NCBI GenBank assembly: GCA_022661535.1
Contig: JAKULF010000020.1
Span: 62,001 to 126,000 of the forward strand
Origin: Eutypa lata
Lineage: Eukaryota > Ascomycota > Sordariomycetes > Xylariales > Diatrypaceae
Length of the DNA: 64,000 nucleotides
Direction of reading: 5' to 3'
The position numbers and the translations under genes are program-made. Every line of letters begins with the position of its first letter. The first letter of the stretch is position 1. The notes under the pieces were generated by a model. The model ran no database searches and was not told the origin of the DNA. It saw only the letters and a program-made list of their open reading frames with translations. Shown here one piece after another: positions 1,026-59,375 of the stretch.

Positions 1026-3082
1026 TCATCGAATCACATCACCCTCCTTGTCAATACCCTCGTTCATCTCCAAGATGTCGCTGCCGGCGAGCACTCCGCT
1101 ATCTAACCCCGTAGTGGCCTTGCGTCCGGCGGTCCACACCTCATGGAACTTGACGCTCTCGTCGCTGCTCGCAACGACAATACACCCCTCGGCTGCGGTC
1201 CGGCTGCGCAGCCGCTTCCTCGTGCGGTAGGTGTCGCTCGGGCCCCCGGGATACGGGATCGCGTAGAGGGCGCGGTGCTCGCCCTCCTAGGGAACGGCGG
1301 CAACCTGACGGCACTCGGGCCAGCTGAACACGGCGATGCGGTACGGGTGGTCGGGCTGCGCGTATCCGAACGTGGCGACTATCTCGCGCCGCGTCGTGCT
1401 CCAGATCAGCGACGTGACCTGGGCTGCTACCGAGATGCTGGCCAGTGCGGCTCCCGACGATGTGTGGAAGAAGTGGATGCACTTATCGTTAGATCCACCA
1501 CCTGTAGCAATTAAACCCTTGCGCCAGGGGCAGAAGGCGATCGCCTTCACGGCTGCGCCATGCTGCCATCTGTATCTCTCGGAACCAGCTGGTAAACTCT
1601 TACTGGTAGGAGGTGCCTCTTGACCCCCTAGTATCTCAGCATCTACATCGATGATCTTTTTCCAGTCAAATAGACAGCATAGATTATCATTTCCACCTGT
1701 AGCGAACTCTTCTCCAGTGTGCGACCATGCTATGCCGCAAACCTGCTGCGAATGCACTTTGACTTGTGCGAGGAGGGTTGTTGCTCCGGGCCAGTTGTGT
1801 TTATTTACTTCCTAGGGATCTGGCCATTCGACAGAGTAGAAATAGACATCTCCCAACTCGTCACCAAGTAGAAGACCCTCTGTTTGGACTGGCGCTCCTG
1901 CACTCAATGGGTTTAGTGATGCGTGGGTCATGGGAGTCGGACGCCAGCTTAGACATGCTACTGGCGCTACTTGCTGGGATTCAAATCGAGGTAACATGTG
2001 TTCGAAGGGAGACATCAGTGATAAGCGCCCGTTCGACCGACCAAAAGCCAAAATGGACTTTTCTCCTTGCTCCGACGAGAATGCCACCGAGGTGAGCCAT
2101 GAGCCATCGCTGAGGCCGGCATTGAGGATATTGACACCAGTAGACTCTGACCAGCCATACAAGAGATTGCCAAGGCCAACTGCGAGAGTGTTGCAATTGA
2201 CGTCGTATGCCATAATGGAGCAGTAGAAGTCATCACGAAGACCAGGTGCATCGAGAACTCTGACTATACGTCAACACACTCTACACAAGCCTTAGTCGGG
2301 GGTGGTGGGGTGACTCACTTGAAAGGAGCATTCGGGAGGGCTCGAGTTTCTTTCTGTATCTTGGGGACGAAGTCGTCATTGCTCCATTCCGTGCCATTCC
2401 ACGTAGTCCTCGAGTCGTCTATTCGAGACCGGATCCGAGGATTCCCCCTCCATCGGGGAAAGGTCGCATAGCCATCAAAATCTAGCACACGTTGGACACG
2501 ATCCATCTTTAGGGCTAAGGCTAGTCTTCCCTCGTGGCTCTCCTGCTCCTCGTCGACCCTGGGTCGCGTGTTGGAGAATGAAGTGCCATAGAGACGGGCA
2601 TTGGTACCTGGACTGAGAAGATGACCTCGGCCGGTATTAATGCCAGATCCTCCAGGTGCCAGACCTCCGACGGACTAGACGGTGCCGTGGCTGACCTGAC
2701 GCTCTAGACCACACGTGTTGGATCCTACACCTACGGTCAAGGTGGTACCTAGTTCGAAGGTAACCGGCAACCAGCTATTAGCCCTAATCCCACAACGTGG
2801 TGGTATCCCAGCCTACACGAGAAGACAAGGTTACGAGTCCAAGCACCTACCTACTCGACGATCCGTGCTGTCAGACCGTGAGACCCTGCGTGCGTTGGCG
2901 GGCAGCATTGCGATTCGACGATGGCCGGAGATAAAGACATCGGGTGCAAAGCTGTCGGTGCGAACCAGCCTCTCCGAAGTAGAGAGCTCTCGAGGGTGTT
3001 TGATGGTGCGGAAACGGTCACCTAAAGGCGGAGCGCTGCGGATGGGCACGAATCGATCTGGGTTTGATGTCGGGTTGGGCAT
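1026..3082 (-). CDS. AMA1: AMA1-like meiotic APC/C activator (Cdc20/Fizzy WD40), three internal UAG codons
   Basis: Activators of this family bind the anaphase-promoting complex and recruit substrates; AMA1 is the meiosis-specific member. Exons are 3082-2855, 2812-2319 and 2259-1026, giving 651 codons plus a TGA stop. The N-terminus carries a C-box (NPDRFVPIR). The middle has the family hallmark PFKVLDAPGLRDDFY across the 2260-2318 intron. WD40 blades follow, and the protein ends exactly in Ile-Arg, the APC-binding IR tail. The frame is broken only by three TAG codons at 2675-2677, 1812-1814 and 1287-1289. Their contexts are SHGTV*SVGG, EWPDP*EVN and VAAVP*EGEHRAL, places where I expect Trp in homologs. 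There are no indels. The first intron is short (42 nt) and its borders are the least certain part. It is either an editing-dependent gene or a pseudogene. Confidence 0.8.
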
Positions 3083-3955: not shown

Positions 3956-5375
3956 ATGGCAAGTGTATGTACTTGAGTATCTACCATCATCGTTCGTCCC
4001 GTCCGTCCCTCCGTCTGTCCTACATACAATACACACGTGCTATAACAGAACAGGCGCTAATCATTGACCATTTGGGAGGGGTTCGTGATAGCATGGCGTA
4101 ACCCGCACCGACCGAGCGCGAACAGAAAAACAACGCCAACAAGAGCTCGTCAAGATCGAGACGTACCGAGACCTAGAGAAGCAAATCCGTGCCAAAGTAG
4201 CTGCCCCGGGGGCCTACGACGATCCCGACCCCGACTCCGACCTCGACCTCTTCAAGCTTACCACTAAGCTCCTGCGACTCAACCCCGAATACTACACAAT
4301 ATGGAACGTCCGTCGCCGCTGTCTAATCTCTGGCTTATTATGCAAACCGTCGGGTGGATCATGGCCCTCGAAGGAGTTGCCGAGTTCTTCACAGAGCGCC
4401 ACTACGAGACCGTCATCCGAAGCCTCATCGCCTTCTTTCTCGGCAGCGACCCGGCCAAGCCAAAGCTCCCCGACGACTGGGGAGAGTGGTACAACAGTTG
4501 ACGAGAAGAACAGCGCCACCACCACCACCACCACCACTACTACTACTACTACTATAAAGGAGCAAGAGTCGGACGCGGACGTTCTGAAGGCTGAGCTAGA
4601 GTTCACCATTCCCCTCCTACTAGAATATCCAAAATGCTACTGGATCTGGAACTTCCGCCGCTGGATCCTATCCCAAGCCATCATCCGCTTACCCGTATCC
4701 AAGGCGCGAAACATCTGGGAGATGGAGCTTGGTCTGGTGTCCAAGATGTTGACCAAAGACCGCCGCAACTTCCACGCCTGGGGCTACCGTCGTTACGTGG
4801 TAACCACTCTCGAGAGCCCCGCGCTGCAGGGCAAGAGCATGGTCGAGAGCGAATTCGCCTACACAACCAATATGATCGAAAAAGACCTATCCAACTTCTC
4901 GGCTTGGCACAACCGCAGCCAGCTCATCCTACGACTGCTCGAAGAGCGCGGCGCAGATGACGAAGCGAGGGCGAGATTTCTAGATAACGAGCTGGAATGG
5001 GTGAAGGAGGGGCTAAATGTCGGGCCTGAGGACCAAAGCCTCTGGTATTATCACCAGTTCTTGATGTCTCAGATTGCCAATTATCAAGGCCGGGCTACCA
5101 TAGCACCAGCTCTAACCCCGGATGAGAGAATTGACTACATCAGACGTGAAATTGACGACGCTAAGGATCTGTTGGAGGATTATCAGGACGTCAAGTGGAT
5201 CTACGAGGCTCTCCTGGAGTATAGCATCACGCTTAGACGGGTAGAACTCGCTGCAGGGCGCGAAGGCGGCAAGGATGAGGACCCGCGGGCTTGGCTGGAA
5301 AAAGTGCGAGCCCTCGATCCGATGCGCAGAGGTAGATGGAGCAATGTCGAAACTCAGCTACTCTCAGCTAAGTAA
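3956..5375 (+). CDS. BET4: Rab geranylgeranyltransferase alpha subunit (BET4)
   Basis: Alpha subunit of the type II geranylgeranyltransferase that prenylates Rab GTPases with BET2 and the escort protein, in the cytosol. Exon 1 is only nine bases (ATG GCA AGT = Met-Ala-Ser), followed by a perfect GTATGT donor at 3965. The acceptor at 4090-4091 gives a start MASHGV and then one open exon (4092-5375), 430 aa in total. Prenyltransferase-alpha repeats are visible as NPEYYTIWNVRRR, YPKCYWIWNFRRW, RNFHAWGYRRYV, SNFSAWHNRSQ and DQSLWYYHQF. A Ser/Thr-rich insert, including 12 consecutive Thr codons (4517-4552), separates the first two repeats and makes the protein longer than usual. The gene is likely essential and is intact. 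It converges on the acid phosphatase gene. Confidence 0.93.
4517..4552 (+). repeat. (ACC/ACT)12 trinucleotide repeat encoding poly-Thr
   Basis: Twelve in-frame Thr codons, seven ACC then five ACT, inside BET4 between two prenyltransferase repeats. Length polymorphism is expected but would keep the frame. Confidence 0.9.
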
Positions 5376-5597: not shown

Positions 5598-7261
5598 TTA
5601 TAGGGGTAAAGATCCATCACACTTCCCTTTGATCAGACTAGCATTTTCACCAACTAGTCCTTCAAAATACGAGAGCAGCGTTTCAACAGGCAGCATATCC
5701 ATCACCCCGAGACTAGGGTTAGATGACGCAAGTGTCTGGCCACCGAAGAGGACTCGCGTATAGTAGCCTGTCTCGCTTGTGTTCTTGTTCTTGTTCTTAG
5801 GCATATACCCATTCTCAGATTTCTTGTACAGCTCAAACACGATCTCGCTCCCCATCCCGGGCCACACCTATCATATTCGAGGTTAGCAAAAGGAGACGGA
5901 CTTTGGAGACTAGAATGAAATGAGGTGATGACGAGACTAACCATGACGTCGGCCTGGAGTATACTCAGAACCCGACTTGTCGACCCATCGTGCGCAACAT
6001 TATGCAAATACAGCGTCCCTCCCTTCCCAGCCACCACATCCCGTAGGTGCGTGCTGAGTTCTGCAATCCACACCCCGTACGAGGCCACGGACGCAGAGAG
6101 CGAGGCATTCGCATCCCGGTAGATCTGCGAGTACTCCCACTGGCCCATGCGATACACGGCATCCGCCAGCTTCTGGTCGACGCAATCCGCAGTAGAGTTC
6201 TGTCCGTCCACCAATTTACACGGGAGAGGCTTCTCGTGGCACTGCCGGGCGGACAGGTTATCGAAATAATGATCGAAGCTAGCGTGGAACCCGGAGTCGT
6301 CTTCCGGCACCCCGGAGATGTCGTCTAGGGTGGCGAACAAGCCCGCGCTCGAGTCGAGATGCTGCTGCCAGTCCGGGTTGGAAGACGACTTGATCGCGTC
6401 GAATAGCGACGCTCCGGCATCGCAGCTGTACTGCGGCTCTAGGCTGTCAATGCCCGTGGCTTGGATCAGGAGCGGGATCGAATCGGTCGTGTCCCACATT
6501 CCGTTGATTACCATGCCGGCGACCTGGCTGGTGATCACGTTGTTCGTCACGCGGTACAATACCTTGCTGCGCCAATCGTTTGAGACTCGGTCGGGGAGGA
6601 ACGCCAAGAGGTCGTGGTAGACACCGTATAAGTCGTGGCCGTGGGTCCACGAATCCTCAAGCCCATCTGACGTTATCTGGGGAAATGAGCAGGTGCCTCT
6701 CCAACCCGACGGCACGAATGGGTTGATGGGTGAGGTGAAACCGTGCCAATAGCCATTAGCGGCTTGCTTGCTTCTTTCAGCGAGCGGCTGTCCGTAATAA
6801 TATAGCCCCTGGTCATCGCAATTCCACTCATAGGATTCCACGGGGAACGCGTTACTTGCGTATGGGGTTCTCTTGTGATGCCTTTGGATCTAGAGGGGAC
6901 GACTTAGCTTATACGTTTCATCCGAGCACTGGAATAAGGGGGCGTGAACATGGGGTGGATGACTCACTATCTCAACATACTGCAGCTCGTACTCATCCGA
7001 AGCCTTCACGTACTCCTTGCTTCGGACATGGGGCATATTGCACCAGTTGTATGTCCCATATACCTCGTCCGGCGTGTCAGACGTATTGAATATGAAGCCA
7101 TACACCCCTTCGCCAGCGAGCACGCTGGTCAGATTGTTAAGATCTGTTTTGCGCGGTGCATGCCAGTTCAAGTCCATAGCTTGACCCGTCGGTAGTAACG
7201 CCGACAAGGTTAATAAGGCTGAGCTCAGGTTGGATATGAACCGCATCGTTGCGACAGGCAT
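5598..7261 (-). CDS. Secreted histidine acid phosphatase family protein
   Basis: Predicted extracellular phosphomonoesterase of the branch-2 histidine phosphatase superfamily. Exons are 7261-6968, 6889-5942 and 5867-5598 (503 aa). The first splice joins ...LQYVEI to IQRHHKRTPYASN, which rebuilds the family RHxxRxP catalytic motif with His replacing the usual Gly. The HD-type motif appears later as NVAHDGSTSR. A signal peptide starts at the first or second Met (7261 or 7246: MRFISNLSSALLTLSALL). Several Cys and N-glycosylation sequons support secretion. All introns are GT-AG (78 and 74 nt). Substrate (phytate or general phosphate esters) cannot be told from sequence alone. Confidence 0.88.
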
Positions 7262-30750: not shown

Positions 30751-31541
30751 ATGTCAGGCCGAATTTTCGCGCATGGGATTGTTTGGGATCCGCGGGAGCC
30801 ACTGCCCCCCGAACTTGAAGATTTGCAAGCGACCAATAGTCGCTCTAGTACCGTTCGTACTGTAGGCACGGGCAATACGACTCTTACTTCGGTCCATATT
30901 CCAACTGGAGCCTGGAGAACAATCTCATCTGGTGGCAATAATGTACCGAATTTGCCAATACGAGCAAGATTGCCCAAGACAGTACCAGAAACTGCTGTCT
31001 GTGAGCCGAACCGGAACGTCCTTCCACCATTATCAATTGCCCTGAACGCTCAGGTCATCCAAGATACCGCGAGGGTCACGGTAACCCAACAATTCTGGAA
31101 TGATGCGGATGTGCCTATTGTTAAAGCTTTGTTTACATTTCCCTTGCCTACTGGTTGCACCCTGACAGAATTCAGCTGTCGCATTGGCCGAGGAGAGATC
31201 TTGAAAGCTACCGTTAAACCCAAGCAAGATGCACGGGACGAATTCAATGATGCTATTCTAAGAGGAGCTACCACTGGCCTGCTTGACCAAAACACACCTG
31301 AGATATTCACGTCGTCGCTCGGAAACATTCCACCAAACACAAGATTGAAATCAAAGATTACCTTCATCACCCTCCTGAAACATCAATTCAACGATAAACG
31401 AAGTGTTACGACTCTTACAATACCTACGAGCATTGCTAGTCGATATGGCGAAGCTCCCTTCGAAGACCAAGGATCTGCGTCTACCGATATGCGAAAAGGG
31501 CTATCGATCGAGATAGATATCGTTGACGTTAATCGAATCCT
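30751..31541 (+). pseudogene. VIT + vWA domain protein, 5' half (split by retrotransposon)
   Basis: Encodes the VIT (vault/inter-alpha-trypsin) domain of a fungal protein that pairs VIT with a von Willebrand A domain. The VIT core is visible as VTVTQQFWNDADVPIVKALFTFPLPTGC (residues about 110-135) and AILRGATTGLLDQ. The frame is open from ATG 30751 and hits TAA at 31543-31545 only because of the insertion. Removing 31542-38781 (element plus one target-site copy) fuses it in frame with the 3' half to a 953-codon frame, with no stop at the junction. The function of such proteins in fungi is poorly known. The gene is disrupted, though both halves are still open. Confidence 0.85.
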
Positions 31542-31546
31542 TTAAT
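31542..31546. repeat. Target-site duplication, left copy (TTAAT)
   Basis: Five bases before the left LTR. The right copy is CCAAT (38782-38786). The two differences are C-to-T, as RIP would produce. Confidence 0.7.
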
Positions 31547-31720
31547 TGTTGCAGTTAAAGCTGCTTACTAAGCTCTCGGAGCAGGGTAAATTTATATCCG
31601 GGGCTTTTATAATATATATAAATCTTTTTAATTATTTATTTTTAATTTTAAAGCTTTTTAAATAATATTTATATTACGCTTTATATTATATTTTACTTTT
31701 AAATTAATTTATACGTAATA
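31547..31720 (+). repeat. Left LTR
   Basis: 174 bp, the same length as the right LTR. The first 70 bases are nearly unmutated (TGTTGCAGTTAAAGCTGCTT...), then it becomes RIP-mutated from about 31,615 onward. Confidence 0.85.
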
Positions 31721-34700
31721 ATTATAAACTTAACGTTTAATTAACTTTAATTTTAATATATTATATTAATTTTTAAATTATTTTATATATTAATTATTAC
31801 GTAAAATTAATTATTTATATATTTATTATATAACTTTTATTTATATATTATTACGTTTTATTAATTAATTAAATATTTTAATTTTATTTATAAAGTTTTA
31901 AACGAGTTTTTTAAATTATAATTTTTTTTAATAAAAACGAAAAAGTTTTTTTAATTAACGTTTTTATAATTAATTAACGAATATTTTTTTATTAATATAT
32001 ATAATTTCGCTTTAACGTTAAAAATTATAAAATTTAATTTTATATTAACTTTAAAAGCGAATTCGTTAAAGATTATACTTTTACGCTTTTTATATTTATA
32101 TATACGTAATTTTTTAAAAGCTTTTATAAATAAAAGAATAAAAATTACGAAAAGCGTTTTAAAACGTAAAAAAAATTTTCGCTTTTAAATAAAAAAACGA
32201 AGTTATAAATAATTAAAAAAAGCATTTTAAAAGTTAAAAAAAAATATAAATAAAAATTTAAGCGTTTTTTAATTAAATAACTTAAATATATATAAATTTT
32301 TAATTAAATAATTAATATTAATAATTAAATTAATAAAATAATTATTAAAAGTATTTTAAACTTTATTTAAATTAAATAAATTTAAAATAATAATTTTATT
32401 ATTTAAAAGTTTATAAAATATATTAAAAAATATTATAAACTTTTTAATTTTATTATTTTATTTAACGTTAAAAAAAGTATAAGTTTATATTTAAAAAAAC
32501 AAAACGTAATAATATTAAGTTAAATATTTAATATTATAAATAATTAAAAGCTTTTTAAAATATTTAAATAAATAACGTTTTTAACGTATAAAAGTTATTT
32601 TTAATTAAAGATTTTTTATATACGTTAAATTATAAAATAATTAAATTTTAAATAAAATAAAAAATTTAAAATTTAATAAAAAAAAACGCATTTAAAATTT
32701 TAATTTTTAATTTAAACGTATACGAAAATATATTTTTTATTATATTTAAAAAGAATAAATTTCGTATTATTTTAAACGAATTAAAAGTATTTATAACGTT
32801 TAAAAAAATTTACTTTTAGTTTTATAAAAAAAATTTAATTTTAAATCGAAAAAGTTAAAAAATTAATAAAATAATAATTATAAATGCTTTTATTATTTTA
32901 ATTTTAATATAAAGTATATTTAAAAGTTTATTATTTATAATAAATTCTTTTATACGTTTATTAAAAAGCTTATTAAAAAAGTTATTTAAATAAATAATAA
33001 AGTTTATAATAAAAGTTTTAAAAATTTAAAAGCTTTATATTTTAAGAATTTTCGCGTTAAACTTATTAAATTTAATTTATTAAACGATTTCGATAAATTT
33101 AAAAAAAATGCTTTATAAAGTTTATTAAAAAGAAAAAATATCTTTATAATAATAATTAATTTTTTTTTATTAAATTCGAACGTTTTTAAGGTTTATTTAA
33201 TGTTTATTTATAATTGTTATTTTTTTATAAACTTTATTTTAATAAATAATTATAATATTATTTATTTAATTAATAATCGAAATTTATTTATTTTTAATAT
33301 TTTTAAAAAAATTATAAAAGAAAAAATAATAAAAATAAAAATTACGTTGTTTTTAATCGATAAAATTAATATTTAAATAATTAAAAAAGTTTTTAATAAA
33401 TAATAAAGTTTTAAAATTATTAATTTAATTTTAAAAAATATAATAATAATTAAAAGGTTTTATTTAAACGTAATATTAAAAGCTTATTTAAAAAAAAATA
33501 TTTAATATTACGATTTTAATATTTTTTTAAAAATTAATAATATTAAATAAAATTATATATTTATTATATTTAAACGTAAATAAAACTTTACTTTTTTTAA
33601 ATATAAATTTATTACTTTTTATTTAAACGTTTTTATTAATATTTTTATAAGTTTTATAAGCATTATAATTTTTTTTTTTATTAAAACGTAAATAAAAATT
33701 AAAAGCGTAAAAACCTTTAATAAGTTATTTACGCTTTTAAAAAGATTTAAAAAAGTTATAATATTTAAAAATAAAATACTTAAATTTAATAATGTTTAAA
33801 AAACTTATTAATTACTTTTAAAACGTTTTTATTAATAATATAATACGTTACGAAAATAATATTAAAAAATTATTAAAAAATTAAATATTTAAGTTATTTT
33901 AACGTATTTATTAAAATTAATTTAATTACTTTTTAAAATATAATAAATATAAATAATTATTAATTATTAAAAATAATTATAACGATAAACTTTTCGATTA
34001 TTTAATTATAAATAAAAATAATAAAGTTATTATAAAAATTTTATAAAATTTTAAAAATTAAATATATAAATATAAACGGCTTATAATTTATATAATTTAA
34101 TAAAATAATAATATTAAAATAATTAATATTTAAAAAAATATTTAATATTAATATTAAATTAAAGTTAAAAGTATAAAAATCGAAACTTTTCTTTTATATA
34201 TTAAAGAATTAATAAGTAAAGAAAAAAGCGTTAAAAATATAATTATTTTAAAATATATTATAATAATAATTATAATAAATCTTTCGAAAATTTTTTAATT
34301 AAAAATAATTTAATATAAAACGATTTAACTTTATAATATAAATTTAAATTTTACGAATTATAATAAAAGCTTAAATAAAGTATTTAAAAGTTAATTTTAA
34401 TAATATTTTCGATAATTTAATTTAAAAATCTTTAAAGTATTTATAATAAATCTTCGATTTAATTTTAATTTAATATAAACATTTAAATATTAAATTTATT
34501 CGTTAAAAAAAAACCGAAAAGTTTATAAAAATTAAAAAGCTTTTAAAGTAAATCTTAAAACGTATATAAATTATTTAATAAATTATATTATAATAAATCT
34601 TTATAAAATTTAAATTTTTAATTTAAATTAAATAATTATTACGCGTAACGTATGTTTTAATAAATATTTTTTTTATAAAAGAAAAATAAAATAAAAAAGC

Positions 34701-35859
34701 GATTTTTATAAATATTAATTAATTACTTATAAAATATTTTTATATAAACGAAAACGTTATAAATACTTTATATATTATTTAAATATTAAAAGCGTAAAAT
34801 TTTAAAAATAAAATAATCTTTTTTATTTTTAAATTAATTAAATACGATTTTAATTTTTTAAATAATTAATTAAGAAATTTAAATTTAAAAATAATAAAGC
34901 TTATATTATAAAATAAAAAAGTTATAAAACTTTAAATCTTTAATTTTATATTTAATTTCGATTTCGAGTAAAATTTTAAATTAATAAAAGAAAAATAATT
35001 TACTTTTTTTAAAAATAAAGTATTTATTATAAATAATAAAAAAGCTTACGAAAACTTTAAAAAAAAACTTATATAAATATAATAAAAATTTACGAAATTA
35101 ATAATATTTTTAATATTTAATATAAAGTTAATATAAATAAATCTTTATTAAAAAATAAAAAGTTTATTTATAATATTATCGTTATAATTTAAAATAATAA
35201 TCGAAATGTATATTTAATCGATTTAATTAATGTTTAAAATGCCGTATATAAACTTTTTACTTATAAAAAAAACGAAAAAGTTATTTATAAATAATATAAA
35301 TAATTTAATTAATATAATATAACGTTAAACGATATTTATATATAAATTATAACTTTATAATACGTTAAAATATAAAACTTTAAATTATAAAAAATTAAAA
35401 TAAATTAAAAAACTTATAAATTAAATAAAGTAATTATATAATAAATAATTTAATTATTAAAAATAACGTATATAAAGTATAATTTATTAATAAATTCGAA
35501 AATATAATAACTTTAAAAGTTATAAAAATAAAAAAAATAATAAATTTTAATTTATTTTTTTTAAAAAACGCTTTAAATAAAAAAAATATTAATAATTTTT
35601 TATATTATTATAATTATAATAATTTTTTAAAAATATATTATTTACTTTTTAATAACTTTAAATAAAAATAAATTATATAAAAATAAATTATTTAAATCGT
35701 TTAAATTATAAAAAAATTTAATTAATTATTTATTAAAAAAAAACTTTATAAAAAATATATACGTAAAAATAAAAACTATAATTATTAAAGATATATTTAA
35801 AGAAATAAATTATTAATAAATTAAATTTTAATTTATTTTATTAAAATAAATATTTAATT

Positions 35860-36480
35860 ATAAATTCGATAAAGATAATTACTTAAAACGTTATAAATTA
35901 AAATTAATTATATATAATAATTTTTAAAAAAAAATATATTTAATTTAATTTACGTTATAACGTTTATAACGAAAACTTTTAAAGTTATTATAATTATAAT
36001 AATAAAGTTTAATTTAAAAATTAATTAATATAACGTTAAAATAACGTTTTTAAATATAATAAAAAACGATAATATATTAATAATTTACGAATATTCGAAT
36101 AAATTTAAAAAATATAATATTTTATTAAAAGTTAAAAAAGCTTTATATAAATTAAAAAATTTATTAATATTATAATATAAAAAGTTTAACTTAATATTAA
36201 AAAAAATTAAACTTATTATTTTAATAAAAAAGCCGTATTTATTTTATAACGAATAATATATATTTTTAATTATATTTTTTATAAACGATATTTTAATTTT
36301 ATATAATAAAAAATATAAAGCGAAAGTTTAAAAGCTCGAAAATTAATTTAAAGCGAAATATAAACTTAAAAAATAAAGTTTAATAAATTAATTTTTTAAT
36401 ATTAAAATAATTAAAAATCGCGAAATGTATAAAATTTATTTATTTTATAATTTATATATTAAAAAAATAATAATTTATTT
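35860..36480 (+). pseudogene. Remnant of copia reverse transcriptase
   Basis: Translated fragments still align in order with copia RT: KDNYLKRYK, KALYKLK, YKKFN, LFYNE, FFINDILILY and KYKAKV/KLEN. They are interrupted by TAA codons created by C-to-T and G-to-A changes. The catalytic Asp pair is degraded (NDI instead of VDD), so it is non-functional. Confidence 0.75.
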
Positions 36481-38607
36481 TAATTTAATTAATAATACTT
36501 ATAAATTAATAATATTTTTAAAACTTTAAATATTTAAAAAAAACTTATATTAAATTTTAAAATATTAAATTAAAAATTATTAAAAACGTATAAATTTTAT
36601 ATTTTATATTACGATTATAATATAATTAAATATAACGTTTATAATATTTAATTTATTTAAGTTTTTTATTAATTTATTTTTAAAATATATAAAAGTAATT
36701 AATAATATAATTAAATATTTTTATATAATAAAGTATTTAAATATTATTTATAAAAATAAAATTAAGAAAATATAAGTATTATTAATAATAAAAAAATTAA
36801 GCGATTTTTTTAAAAATATTTAATATTTTTATTTAAAAGATTTATAATATAAAAAGTAATTCGTTAAAATATAATTATTATATTTATTATAAAAATAAAA
36901 ACGTTAATATTTAAATATATAATTAAAAAAATTATTATTTTAAAACGTTTATTTCGAAATTTATAACTTAAGTTTAATAAAATATAAATTTTTTTTTATA
37001 ATAATTAATAAATAATAAAATTAATTATAAAATAAATTAAAAAAATTAATATAAAGTTTTATTATATAAATATATAAAATATATAACTTAAATAAAAATA
37101 AATAAAAAAAACTTTTAAAGTTATTTATTTATTTATAAATTAAATATTTATTAATAAATTAATAAAAATATTTAATAAATAAAAATTTAAATATTTTAAA
37201 GCGTTTTTAACTTTTAAAATATAAAATAAATTATTTTAAAAAATATAAAATAAAATAAATAGTTTTAAATTTTTATTTAAAATATAACGATTTAAATTTA
37301 AAAGTTAAATTTTTATAAAGTATAAAAGTTCGTTAAATAATAAAAGTATTAAAAGGTTAAAATTTTAAAAATAATAATAAAAACGAATATTTAAATTAAA
37401 ACTTTAAAACGATAAAATAACTTAATTAATTATATAAGCTTATAAAATCTTTATTAAAGTATAAATTATATTAACTTTATTATTATTATTATTATTATTA
37501 ATATTAATATCGTTAACTTTTAAAAATAAAAAGCGAAACTCGTTTTATTTAAAATTATCGTTTTTTTTTTCGTTTTTTTTTTCGTTTTTCTTTTTGTTTT
37601 TTTTTAAAAAAAAAACGCGTAAACGATAATAAATTATAATAACGAGCTTTATATAAACGTTAATATAAAAGTATAATAATAAAAAATTAAAATTATTTAT
37701 TTAATTAAAGTTAAAAAAATTAATTATTAAAAAAATAACGAAAAAACGCGCGATAAAACGAATATAATATAAATTAAAATATATATAAATTAAACTTAAT
37801 ATTAATAATAAATAATAATATAATAAAATTAATATTTATTAATAAAAATATTTAAATAAATAACTTTAATAACGAAAATTATAACTTAAAATATTTAAAT
37901 ATTAATCGTTAAATCGGCCGATAAACGCGTTACGAATGCATTTTAAATACGAAATACGTTATATAATAATCGTTATTAAATACAATTTACGATTAAACGT
38001 ACGCGAAAATAAAAGCGAAAAAAAAATAATATAATAATAATAATATATATAACGCGAATATACGTAACGTTAATTATTTATATAATTTTAATAACGTATA
38101 AAAAATAAAAAAACATTTTATTATTATTATTATTATTATTATTTTTTATTACGAATATATTAATTTATAATTTTATAAGCGTTATAAATTAAAAGCGTAT
38201 ATATAAAAGTTATAATAATATTAAAGAAAAAAAAATAATAATAATAATAAAATAAATAATTTTTATAATTTAAATTTTTAAATAATAATTTATATTTTTA
38301 TTTATTTATATTTAAAAAAAATATATATAACTTTTAATTAAATAAAGTATAAAATTTAATACGAATTTTATATTTATAAAAATTAATAAAAATATTATAA
38401 TATATATAATTACGTATAATTTTTTATATATAAATAACTTTATTTTAAAAATACGATTATTTAAACTTTAATTAAAATGTTTCGAATTACGAAAAATATT
38501 TTTAAAGTTAAAAATATACTTAATAAAACAAAAGAATTATAATTTTATAAGTTTAAAACATCGTAAAATAATTAAAAGCATCGTGAAATACTTCGACTTA
38601 AAAGGTA

Positions 38608-58782: not shown

Positions 58783-59062
58783 CTACACCTACCTTCGACC
58801 TACCTACCTACCTTCGACCTACCTACCTACCTTCGACCTACCTACCTACCTACAGACCTACCTACCTACCTACAGACCTACCTACCTACCTACAGACCTA
58901 AGTGTCAACAGCACCACCACCTAGCTGTACGGAGCTGTACGGAGCTGTACGGATGCGGAGCTGGCTATACGGAACTGGCCGGATGCGTAGCTGGCTATAC
59001 GGAGCGGGTCGGATGCGGAGTTGGCTGTACGGAGCTGTACAGGTGGTTTTAGGGTGCACCGA

Positions 59063-59101
59063 GGAGCGGATAGGAGCTGCGAAGCAGCTACTATCCGCTC
59101 C
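59063..59101. repeat. 39-nt near-perfect hairpin, copy A
   Basis: 18-bp stem (GGAGCGGATAGGAGCTGC) with one mismatch and a GAA loop. The same unit recurs at 59178 and 59376. Confidence 0.9.
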
Positions 59102-59177
59102 GACCCATTACTTAAGTAGGTAGGTCGTCGAAGGTGTACGGAGCCGAAGCTATACAGGTGGCTTCAAGGTGCGCCGA

Positions 59178-59216
59178 GGAGCGGATAGGAGCTGCGAAGC
59201 AGCTACTATCCGCTCC
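59178..59216. repeat. 39-nt hairpin, copy B
   Basis: Identical hairpin to copy A, in a repeat unit that also shares the flanks GGTGCGCCGA and CGACCAA...CTTAAGTAGG. Confidence 0.9.
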
Positions 59217-59375
59217 GACCAACAACTTAAGTAGGTAGGTCGAAGGTAGGTAGGTAGGTCGAAGGTAGGTAGGTAGGTCGAAGGTAGGTAGGTAGGTCGA
59301 AGGTAGGTAGGTAGGTAGGTAGGTAGGTCGTACGGAGCCGTACGGAGCTGTACAAGTGGCTTCAAAGTGCGCCGA

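Follow-up and report, generated by a model that had tools for sequence, protein, structure and literature searches.

Three in-frame UAG codons at conserved tryptophan positions in Eutypa lata AMA1 point to stop correction by sexual-stage A-to-I editing

The DNA analysed here is a 64-kb stretch of Eutypa lata (hereafter, the window) from a genome assembly of 54.5 Mb in 29 contigs. Reading of the raw sequence, aided by a script, placed an AMA1/Cdc20-Fizzy gene at window 3082-1026 on the minus strand. Its exon/intron structure is a sequence-based model, in which the spliced frame comprises 631 codons followed by TGA. The features of the gene are as follows:

Exon 1, window 2851..3082, minus strand: ATG at 3082-3080 and C-box DRFVPIR at 3058-3038; placed by frame reading and alignment with Monosporascus proteins
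Intron 1 (102 nt), window 2749..2850, minus strand: inferred from the splice signals GTAGGT...CTAG and the downstream peptide in Monosporascus
Exon 2, window 2319..2748, minus strand: placed by frame reading and the Monosporascus proteins
Intron 2 (59 nt), window 2260..2318, minus strand: inferred from GTGAGT...GTCAG and the listed acceptor that preserves the frame (FK/VLDAPG)
Exon 3, window 1026..2259, minus strand: WD40 propeller, then the Ile-Arg tail (1034-1029) and the TGA stop; placed by Pfam PF24807 and the predicted fold
TAG 1, window 2675..2677, minus strand: residue 102, Trp in relatives
TAG 2, window 1812..1814, minus strand: residue 370, Trp in relatives
TAG 3, window 1287..1289, minus strand: residue 545, Trp in relatives

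Exactly three in-frame stops interrupt the frame internally, every one a TAG; there is no internal TAA or TGA and no frameshift or indel. An earlier note on this DNA had described a 651-codon frame with these three stops. The stop positions, their identity as TAG and the lack of indels stand, while the length is corrected to 631 codons. The note had also called the C-box and the terminal Ile-Arg intact, and both are: the protein begins with MPNPTSNPDRFVPIR, which contains the C-box DRFVPIR (residues 9-15), and ends in GDVIR directly before the TGA. The homologue search and the first comparisons with Monosporascus and Fusarium used a 616-aa read-through protein with another intron 1 acceptor; all alignment counts given by residue number refer to the 631-aa model.

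Close to AMA1, an intact frame on the plus strand (window 4092-5375) encodes five repeats of the protein prenyltransferase alpha type (PF01239). This frame is convergent with a gene on the minus strand (~5600-7200), called mannanase-like by eye, for which the piece searched gave no Pfam match. Further along, a sharp-edged AT-rich island of ~7 kb (window 31500-38600) is full of degenerate AT repeats and for the most part has 6-15% G+C, in a window of 43.6% G+C; it is perhaps made of RIP-eroded repeats or centromere-like DNA. A cluster of tandem arrays at window 58787-59328 is built from 19-nt units (ACCTACCTACGACCTACCT and GTAGGTAGGTCGAAGGTAG), 30-nt units and 115-nt units.

A Pfam search assigned the AMA1 protein to the WD40_CDC20-Fz family (PF24807; 207.8 bits against a cut-off of 200, residues 6-337 of P0001). 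Proteins of this kind bind APC/C through the C-box and the C-terminal Ile-Arg. Among the 184 relatives retrieved, 172 end in IR and 116 carry the motif DR[FYW][IV]P within their first 400 residues. There are at least 120 homologues, and among the matches listed are Bcama1 of Botrytis and two records with names of the form 'related to ... AMA1'. The nearest named proteins among the matches listed come from Monosporascus and share 74% identity along the entire query. The closest listed match, P0034, reaches 83% along 67% of the query, and its residue at both site 2 and site 3 is W. In the genome search AMA1 occupies one place, the other two matches being pieces of a single gene of ~40% identity that is free of stops, and the Cdc20/Cdh1-type gene of the genome is distinct from the AMA1 gene. 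Exon 3, translated with Trp at sites 2 and 3, gives a beta-propeller in structure prediction (pTM 0.75, mean pLDDT 74.7, with pLDDT < 50 over the last 34 residues), and the best 28 PDB matches in a fold search with this model are Cdc20/Cdh1 or checkpoint-complex entries. We take the prediction and the fold search to confirm the family only. On its sequence, we regard the gene as orthologous to AMA1, which activates APC/C in meiosis.

The earlier note had expected Trp at all three stops, and the ortholog alignment bears this out: in the 43 outgroup rows from outside Xylariales and Hypocreales (Leotiomycetes, Sordariales and related), sites 1, 2 and 3 are Trp in 43, 42 and 43 rows, respectively. 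Before rows were counted, 15 of the 120 rows of the first homologue listing and 12 of 64 added rows were excluded by hand. Xylariales rows (n = 60) were assigned by organism name in a wide sense, with P0034 counted among them. The present frame offers 210 single-base routes to a stop, or 216 if the three stops are counted as Trp codons, and 18 of these 216 are TGG-to-TAG. If all routes are assumed to be equally likely, the chance that all three stops are of this type is ~6e-4. The frame has 18 Trp codons, 15 of them TGG and the other three TAG. Translation of UAG without editing, through readthrough or codon reassignment, would fit the fact that the stops are all one codon, yet the 15 TGG codons argue against reassignment, and we consider this explanation exceedingly unlikely.

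The protein models of relatives break at the same positions. Residue 370 is missing in 44 of the 60 Xylariales models, of which 29 restart exactly at 371 and 7 at 372, and residue 545 is missing in 26; the Trp residues 257, 452, 466 and 507 are missing in none. For the 270 columns conserved in the outgroup, the median number of Xylariales rows lacking a column is one, and the columns missing in at least 20 of the 60 models all fall within 352-370 and 543-545, ranges that end at TAG 2 and TAG 3. Site 1 Trp is absent from seven of the 60 models, namely from five Monosporascus proteins and two later-starting proteins. All five Monosporascus models are broken at residues 102 and 370. At residue 102, two of them restart directly after the site and three end in Tyr, which may be what a predictor makes of TA/GT. 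At site 545, all five have Trp, so TAG 3 is probably a separate gain here, or was lost in Monosporascus. Across the 60 Xylariales rows, the patterns at 102/370/545 are W-- (22 rows), W-W (17), WWW (10) and WW- (4), with Y-W (3), --W (2) and -WW (2, the later-starting proteins) being rarer. The 10 models with W at all three sites count against the editing reading, as does W at sites 2 and 3 of P0034. The most frequent gap end in the Xylariales alignment, residue 89 (49 rows), lies in a poorly conserved stretch and was set aside as a length difference.

From these apparent annotation artefacts in protein models we infer UAG codons in the relatives, and sites 1 and 2 appear to be common to Monosporascus. 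Gaps of the kind that false introns at UAG would leave are seen in 44 and 26 of 60 protein models at sites 2 and 3. In F. graminearum, introns placed at UAG were errors of annotation in PUK1 and in 69 further genes, according to passages of Liu et al. (PMC4817773). Many public Xylariales AMA1 models are probably wrong at sites 102, 370 and 545. The same gaps could instead be genuine, if real or alternative introns with each TAG as acceptor removed the stops and gave shorter proteins. The 29 models that restart exactly past residue 370 fit such splicing, and FgBUD14 transcripts are edited at UAG and also alternatively spliced at the intron containing the site, according to a part of PMC11156358. 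However, residues 352-370 are ungapped in all 43 outgroup rows and largely conserved there, the predicted fold would be expected to lose a propeller strand along with them, and similar introns are what Liu et al. trace to annotation errors in PUK1 and the further 69 genes (PMC4817773, in part). For TAG 1, use as a splice acceptor is rejected: the start of exon 2 is supported by the peptide GTTLA-GLGSNTCGLERQVS directly upstream of TAG 1, kept in three of the five Monosporascus proteins, and this start places TAG 1 ~70 bases inside exon 2. Overall, removal of the stops by splicing strikes us as very improbable.

The sequence around the three stops is consistent with editing. According to passages of PMC9600606, editing sites are enriched for C or U at position -2, U at -1, A or G at +1, G at +2 and A or G at +3 and +4. 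TAG 2 and TAG 3 have six of the six preferred bases and TAG 1 has three, the U at -1 of all three being given by the codon. When the 15 other Trp codons are scored as UAG, none has all six bases and the best has five; among 407 adenosines scanned, covering the frame minus its outer 30 nt, three have all six. With flanks of 25-50 nt, all three UAG adenosines lie in predicted hairpin loops, compared with 6/15 control Trp codons at 25 nt, 3/15 at 30 nt and 4/15 at both 40 and 50 nt. TAG 1 is in a predicted hairpin loop at six of six flank sizes. TAG 2 is outside the predicted hairpin with flanks of 15-20 nt and inside with flanks of at least 25 nt; at 15-20 nt, 8-9 of the 15 control codons are in hairpins. 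The two small-number odds for the editability of the sites, ~0.025 and 0.020, are supportive, not decisive. In a scan of the window for stops with coding sequence on both sides, TAG 3 ranks first and TAG 2 23rd of 60 junctions with open flanks, and TAG 1 is absent from the best 25 of the 60. Readthrough does not predict these features: the three replaced residues are all Trp, after U and in hairpin loops, and a suppressor tRNA needs none of this. No tRNA genes were found in the 64-kb window.

The stops could also mark a recent pseudogene, its function lost in this (perhaps asexual) strain and its frame interrupted by chance or by RIP. Under RIP, G-to-A at TGG is C-to-T at CpA on the opposite strand. 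TGG-to-TAG is a RIP-type transition, and the AT-rich island elsewhere in the window has RIP-like indices. The gene itself, however, has a RIP index of -0.31 versus -0.145 for the window, and 57 transition routes to a stop lie unused in its frame (15 TGG-to-TAG, 15 TGG-to-TGA, 11 CGA, 10 CAG and 6 CAA), which also carries no frameshift. Conservation does not decay past the stops. Despite the seemingly common sites 1 and 2, residues 103-369 are 67-81% identical to Monosporascus (the low values include mis-modelled stretches), and identity is 80-83% over 371-544 and 91-94% over 546-631. The 86 residues past the last TAG are the best conserved, 78-81 of them being identical to the five Monosporascus proteins. 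With site contexts and hairpins that match editing as a further point against it, a pseudogene seems to us unlikely by a wide measure.

The genome has two DUF726 genes. The copy on contig C11 (L004) is of the Ame1 type, with the residues MV ahead of the conserved RA[ED]K stretch and 82% identity to Diatrype stigma Ame1. The AMA1 and Ame1 matches together suggest a place within Xylariales close to Diatrypaceae. Among the 120 relatives of this copy listed, 104 have MV and 12 have KN, with KS, KT, VI and LV found once each; the named leotiomycete rows of the alignment have KN in 11 of 12 and KS in one. A section of PMC11087585 reports that the replacement of KN by MV is critical for Ame1-Tad3 binding and mRNA editing in Sordariomycetes. 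Together with that report, the MV residues suggest that the C11 copy is competent for editing. Stops in the C9 DUF726 gene, like the one at window 6892 in the mannanase-like gene, are by eye intron ends and were set aside.

A second gene of the genome carries an exonic TAG:

NDR-type kinase (L074), G000:C10:2806000-2810200, minus strand: one exonic TAG (C10:2807541-2807543) in the subdomain IX motif

Subdomain IX of this kinase reads GAT-TAG-TGG (peptide GEYDARCD-TAG-WSLGIILYECLYGH), with 207 open codons upstream, up to a previous stop that is by eye intronic, and 398 downstream. CBK1 is the closest among solved structures. The adenosine of the TAG lies in a predicted hairpin loop and has five of the six preferred bases. 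Elsewhere in the genome, at C2:4446553, lies an intact kinase that reads CDWWSLG. A TAG at the subdomain IX motif was found in one of 40 distinct kinase loci read, a further argument against codon reassignment. According to passages of Liu et al. (PMC4817773), PUK1 has its stops in kinase subdomain IX, with UAG-UGG in Neurospora, and N. crassa NCU03242 is the PUK1 ortholog with this arrangement. The C10 kinase is probably orthologous to PUK1 and, after AMA1, a further candidate for stop correction here. The kinase survey gave 141 family matches, 39 of them containing a stop and 30 of these 39 a TAG; because TAG is a common intron acceptor, such raw counts are uninformative. By eye, every stop in these 39 matches apart from the one at subdomain IX falls within an intron or at its border, and was not taken as exonic. 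In Fusarium, editing affects SPO22 and RID (PMC4817773, in part); here, the Pfam-matched portion of SPO22 has no exonic stop, and neither do the Pfam-matched portions of the DNA-methylase genes (seven matches), which is a point against the editing reading.

We consider it highly probable that AMA1 mRNA in E. lata depends on A-to-I editing in the sexual stage to correct its premature stops. The earlier note had proposed stop-loss editing of this gene; the base context, hairpin loops, Ame1 copy, kinase UAG and breaks in the relatives' models favour that proposal, which is not new in kind. The genomic frame carries three UAGs at Trp codons, and, from the sequence and gene model, the unedited mRNA would give a 101-residue stub with the C-box but without the propeller. 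The tRNA deaminase Tad2-Tad3, together with Ame1, would deaminate the A of each UAG in fruiting bodies to yield U-I-G, read as Trp; this step is suggested by the base context, the hairpins and the MV residues of Ame1, along with what is published on Fusarium. Only multiply edited transcripts would then encode the full propeller and the Ile-Arg tail, and the activator would therefore be confined to the sexual phase. Both the occurrence of editing in AMA1 and its restriction to the sexual stage are read from DNA and protein sequences and stay conditional. A three-stop 'lock' on the sexual phase is plausible. Selection may have kept the stops as a lock, instead of merely tolerating them; the alternative is that restorable stops accumulated neutrally.

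The dependence of AMA1 on editing has already been published for F. graminearum, the primary paper on FgAMA1 reportedly being Hao et al. 2019. FgAMA1 is among 70 F. graminearum genes with an in-frame UAG (PMC4817773, in part), and editing of FgAMA1 (FGRRES_10728) is required for the full-length protein and important for ascospores, according to portions of PMC11156358, PMC9499528 and PMC12582100. The E. lata gene resembles FgAMA1 as its ortholog, whose in-frame UAG is edited to UGG in perithecia, as these partial accounts have it, to give the full-length protein; it differs in belonging to another order and, judged by gene-model gaps, in the Trp positions concerned. In 54 rows from Hypocreales and Pyricularia, residue 275 is missing in 20 and residue 326 in 11, both being TGG in E. 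lata. Both F. graminearum rows lack residue 275, and one also lacks 326. Many Fusarium AMA1 models among P0122-P0153 are without Trp at the equivalents of residues 275 and 326. This suggests that UAGs arose at differing Trp codons in differing lineages, in Fusarium at ~275 and 326.

PUK1 and NCU03242 (STK-21) share with AMA1 an exonic UAG at a Trp position, and annotation has recast the exon as an intron in these kinase genes and apparently also in AMA1 of relatives, but they belong to another protein family and have one or two adjacent stops, whereas those of AMA1 are three and spread across the gene. OLD-ZAO and CHE1 likewise involve stop correction through RNA editing; as described in sections of PMC12754623, however, these are antiviral or hyphal genes, not meiotic ones, and the ZAO enzyme is OLD. 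New here are the other order, the three sites, the order-wide pattern and the signs of recurrent UAG gain, with the editing itself presumed from this evidence. Words beginning with 'xylari' do not occur in PMC11087585 and PMC12754623, the word Xylariales is present in PMC11708053 and PMC6660238, and nothing here is meant to imply that editing in Xylariales has gone unreported.

Individual editing sites are not necessarily conserved, as a passage of PMC5381528 states. AMA1 may be a hotspot in which Sordariomycetes repeatedly turn conserved Trp codons into editable UAGs at differing places (in E. lata at 102, 370 and 545; in Fusarium probably near 275 and 326), with site 370 kept across most of the order, so that three serial edits would form a multi-key lock on meiotic APC/C activation maintained by selection; we put this forward tentatively, giving it slightly less than an even chance. 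If the E. lata gene is edited, editing-dependent AMA1 extends from Fusarium to a xylarialean fungus, with three serial sites in one gene. A comparison of which Trp codons were converted, and of how long they have been retained, would make adaptive versus neutral restorative editing directly testable.
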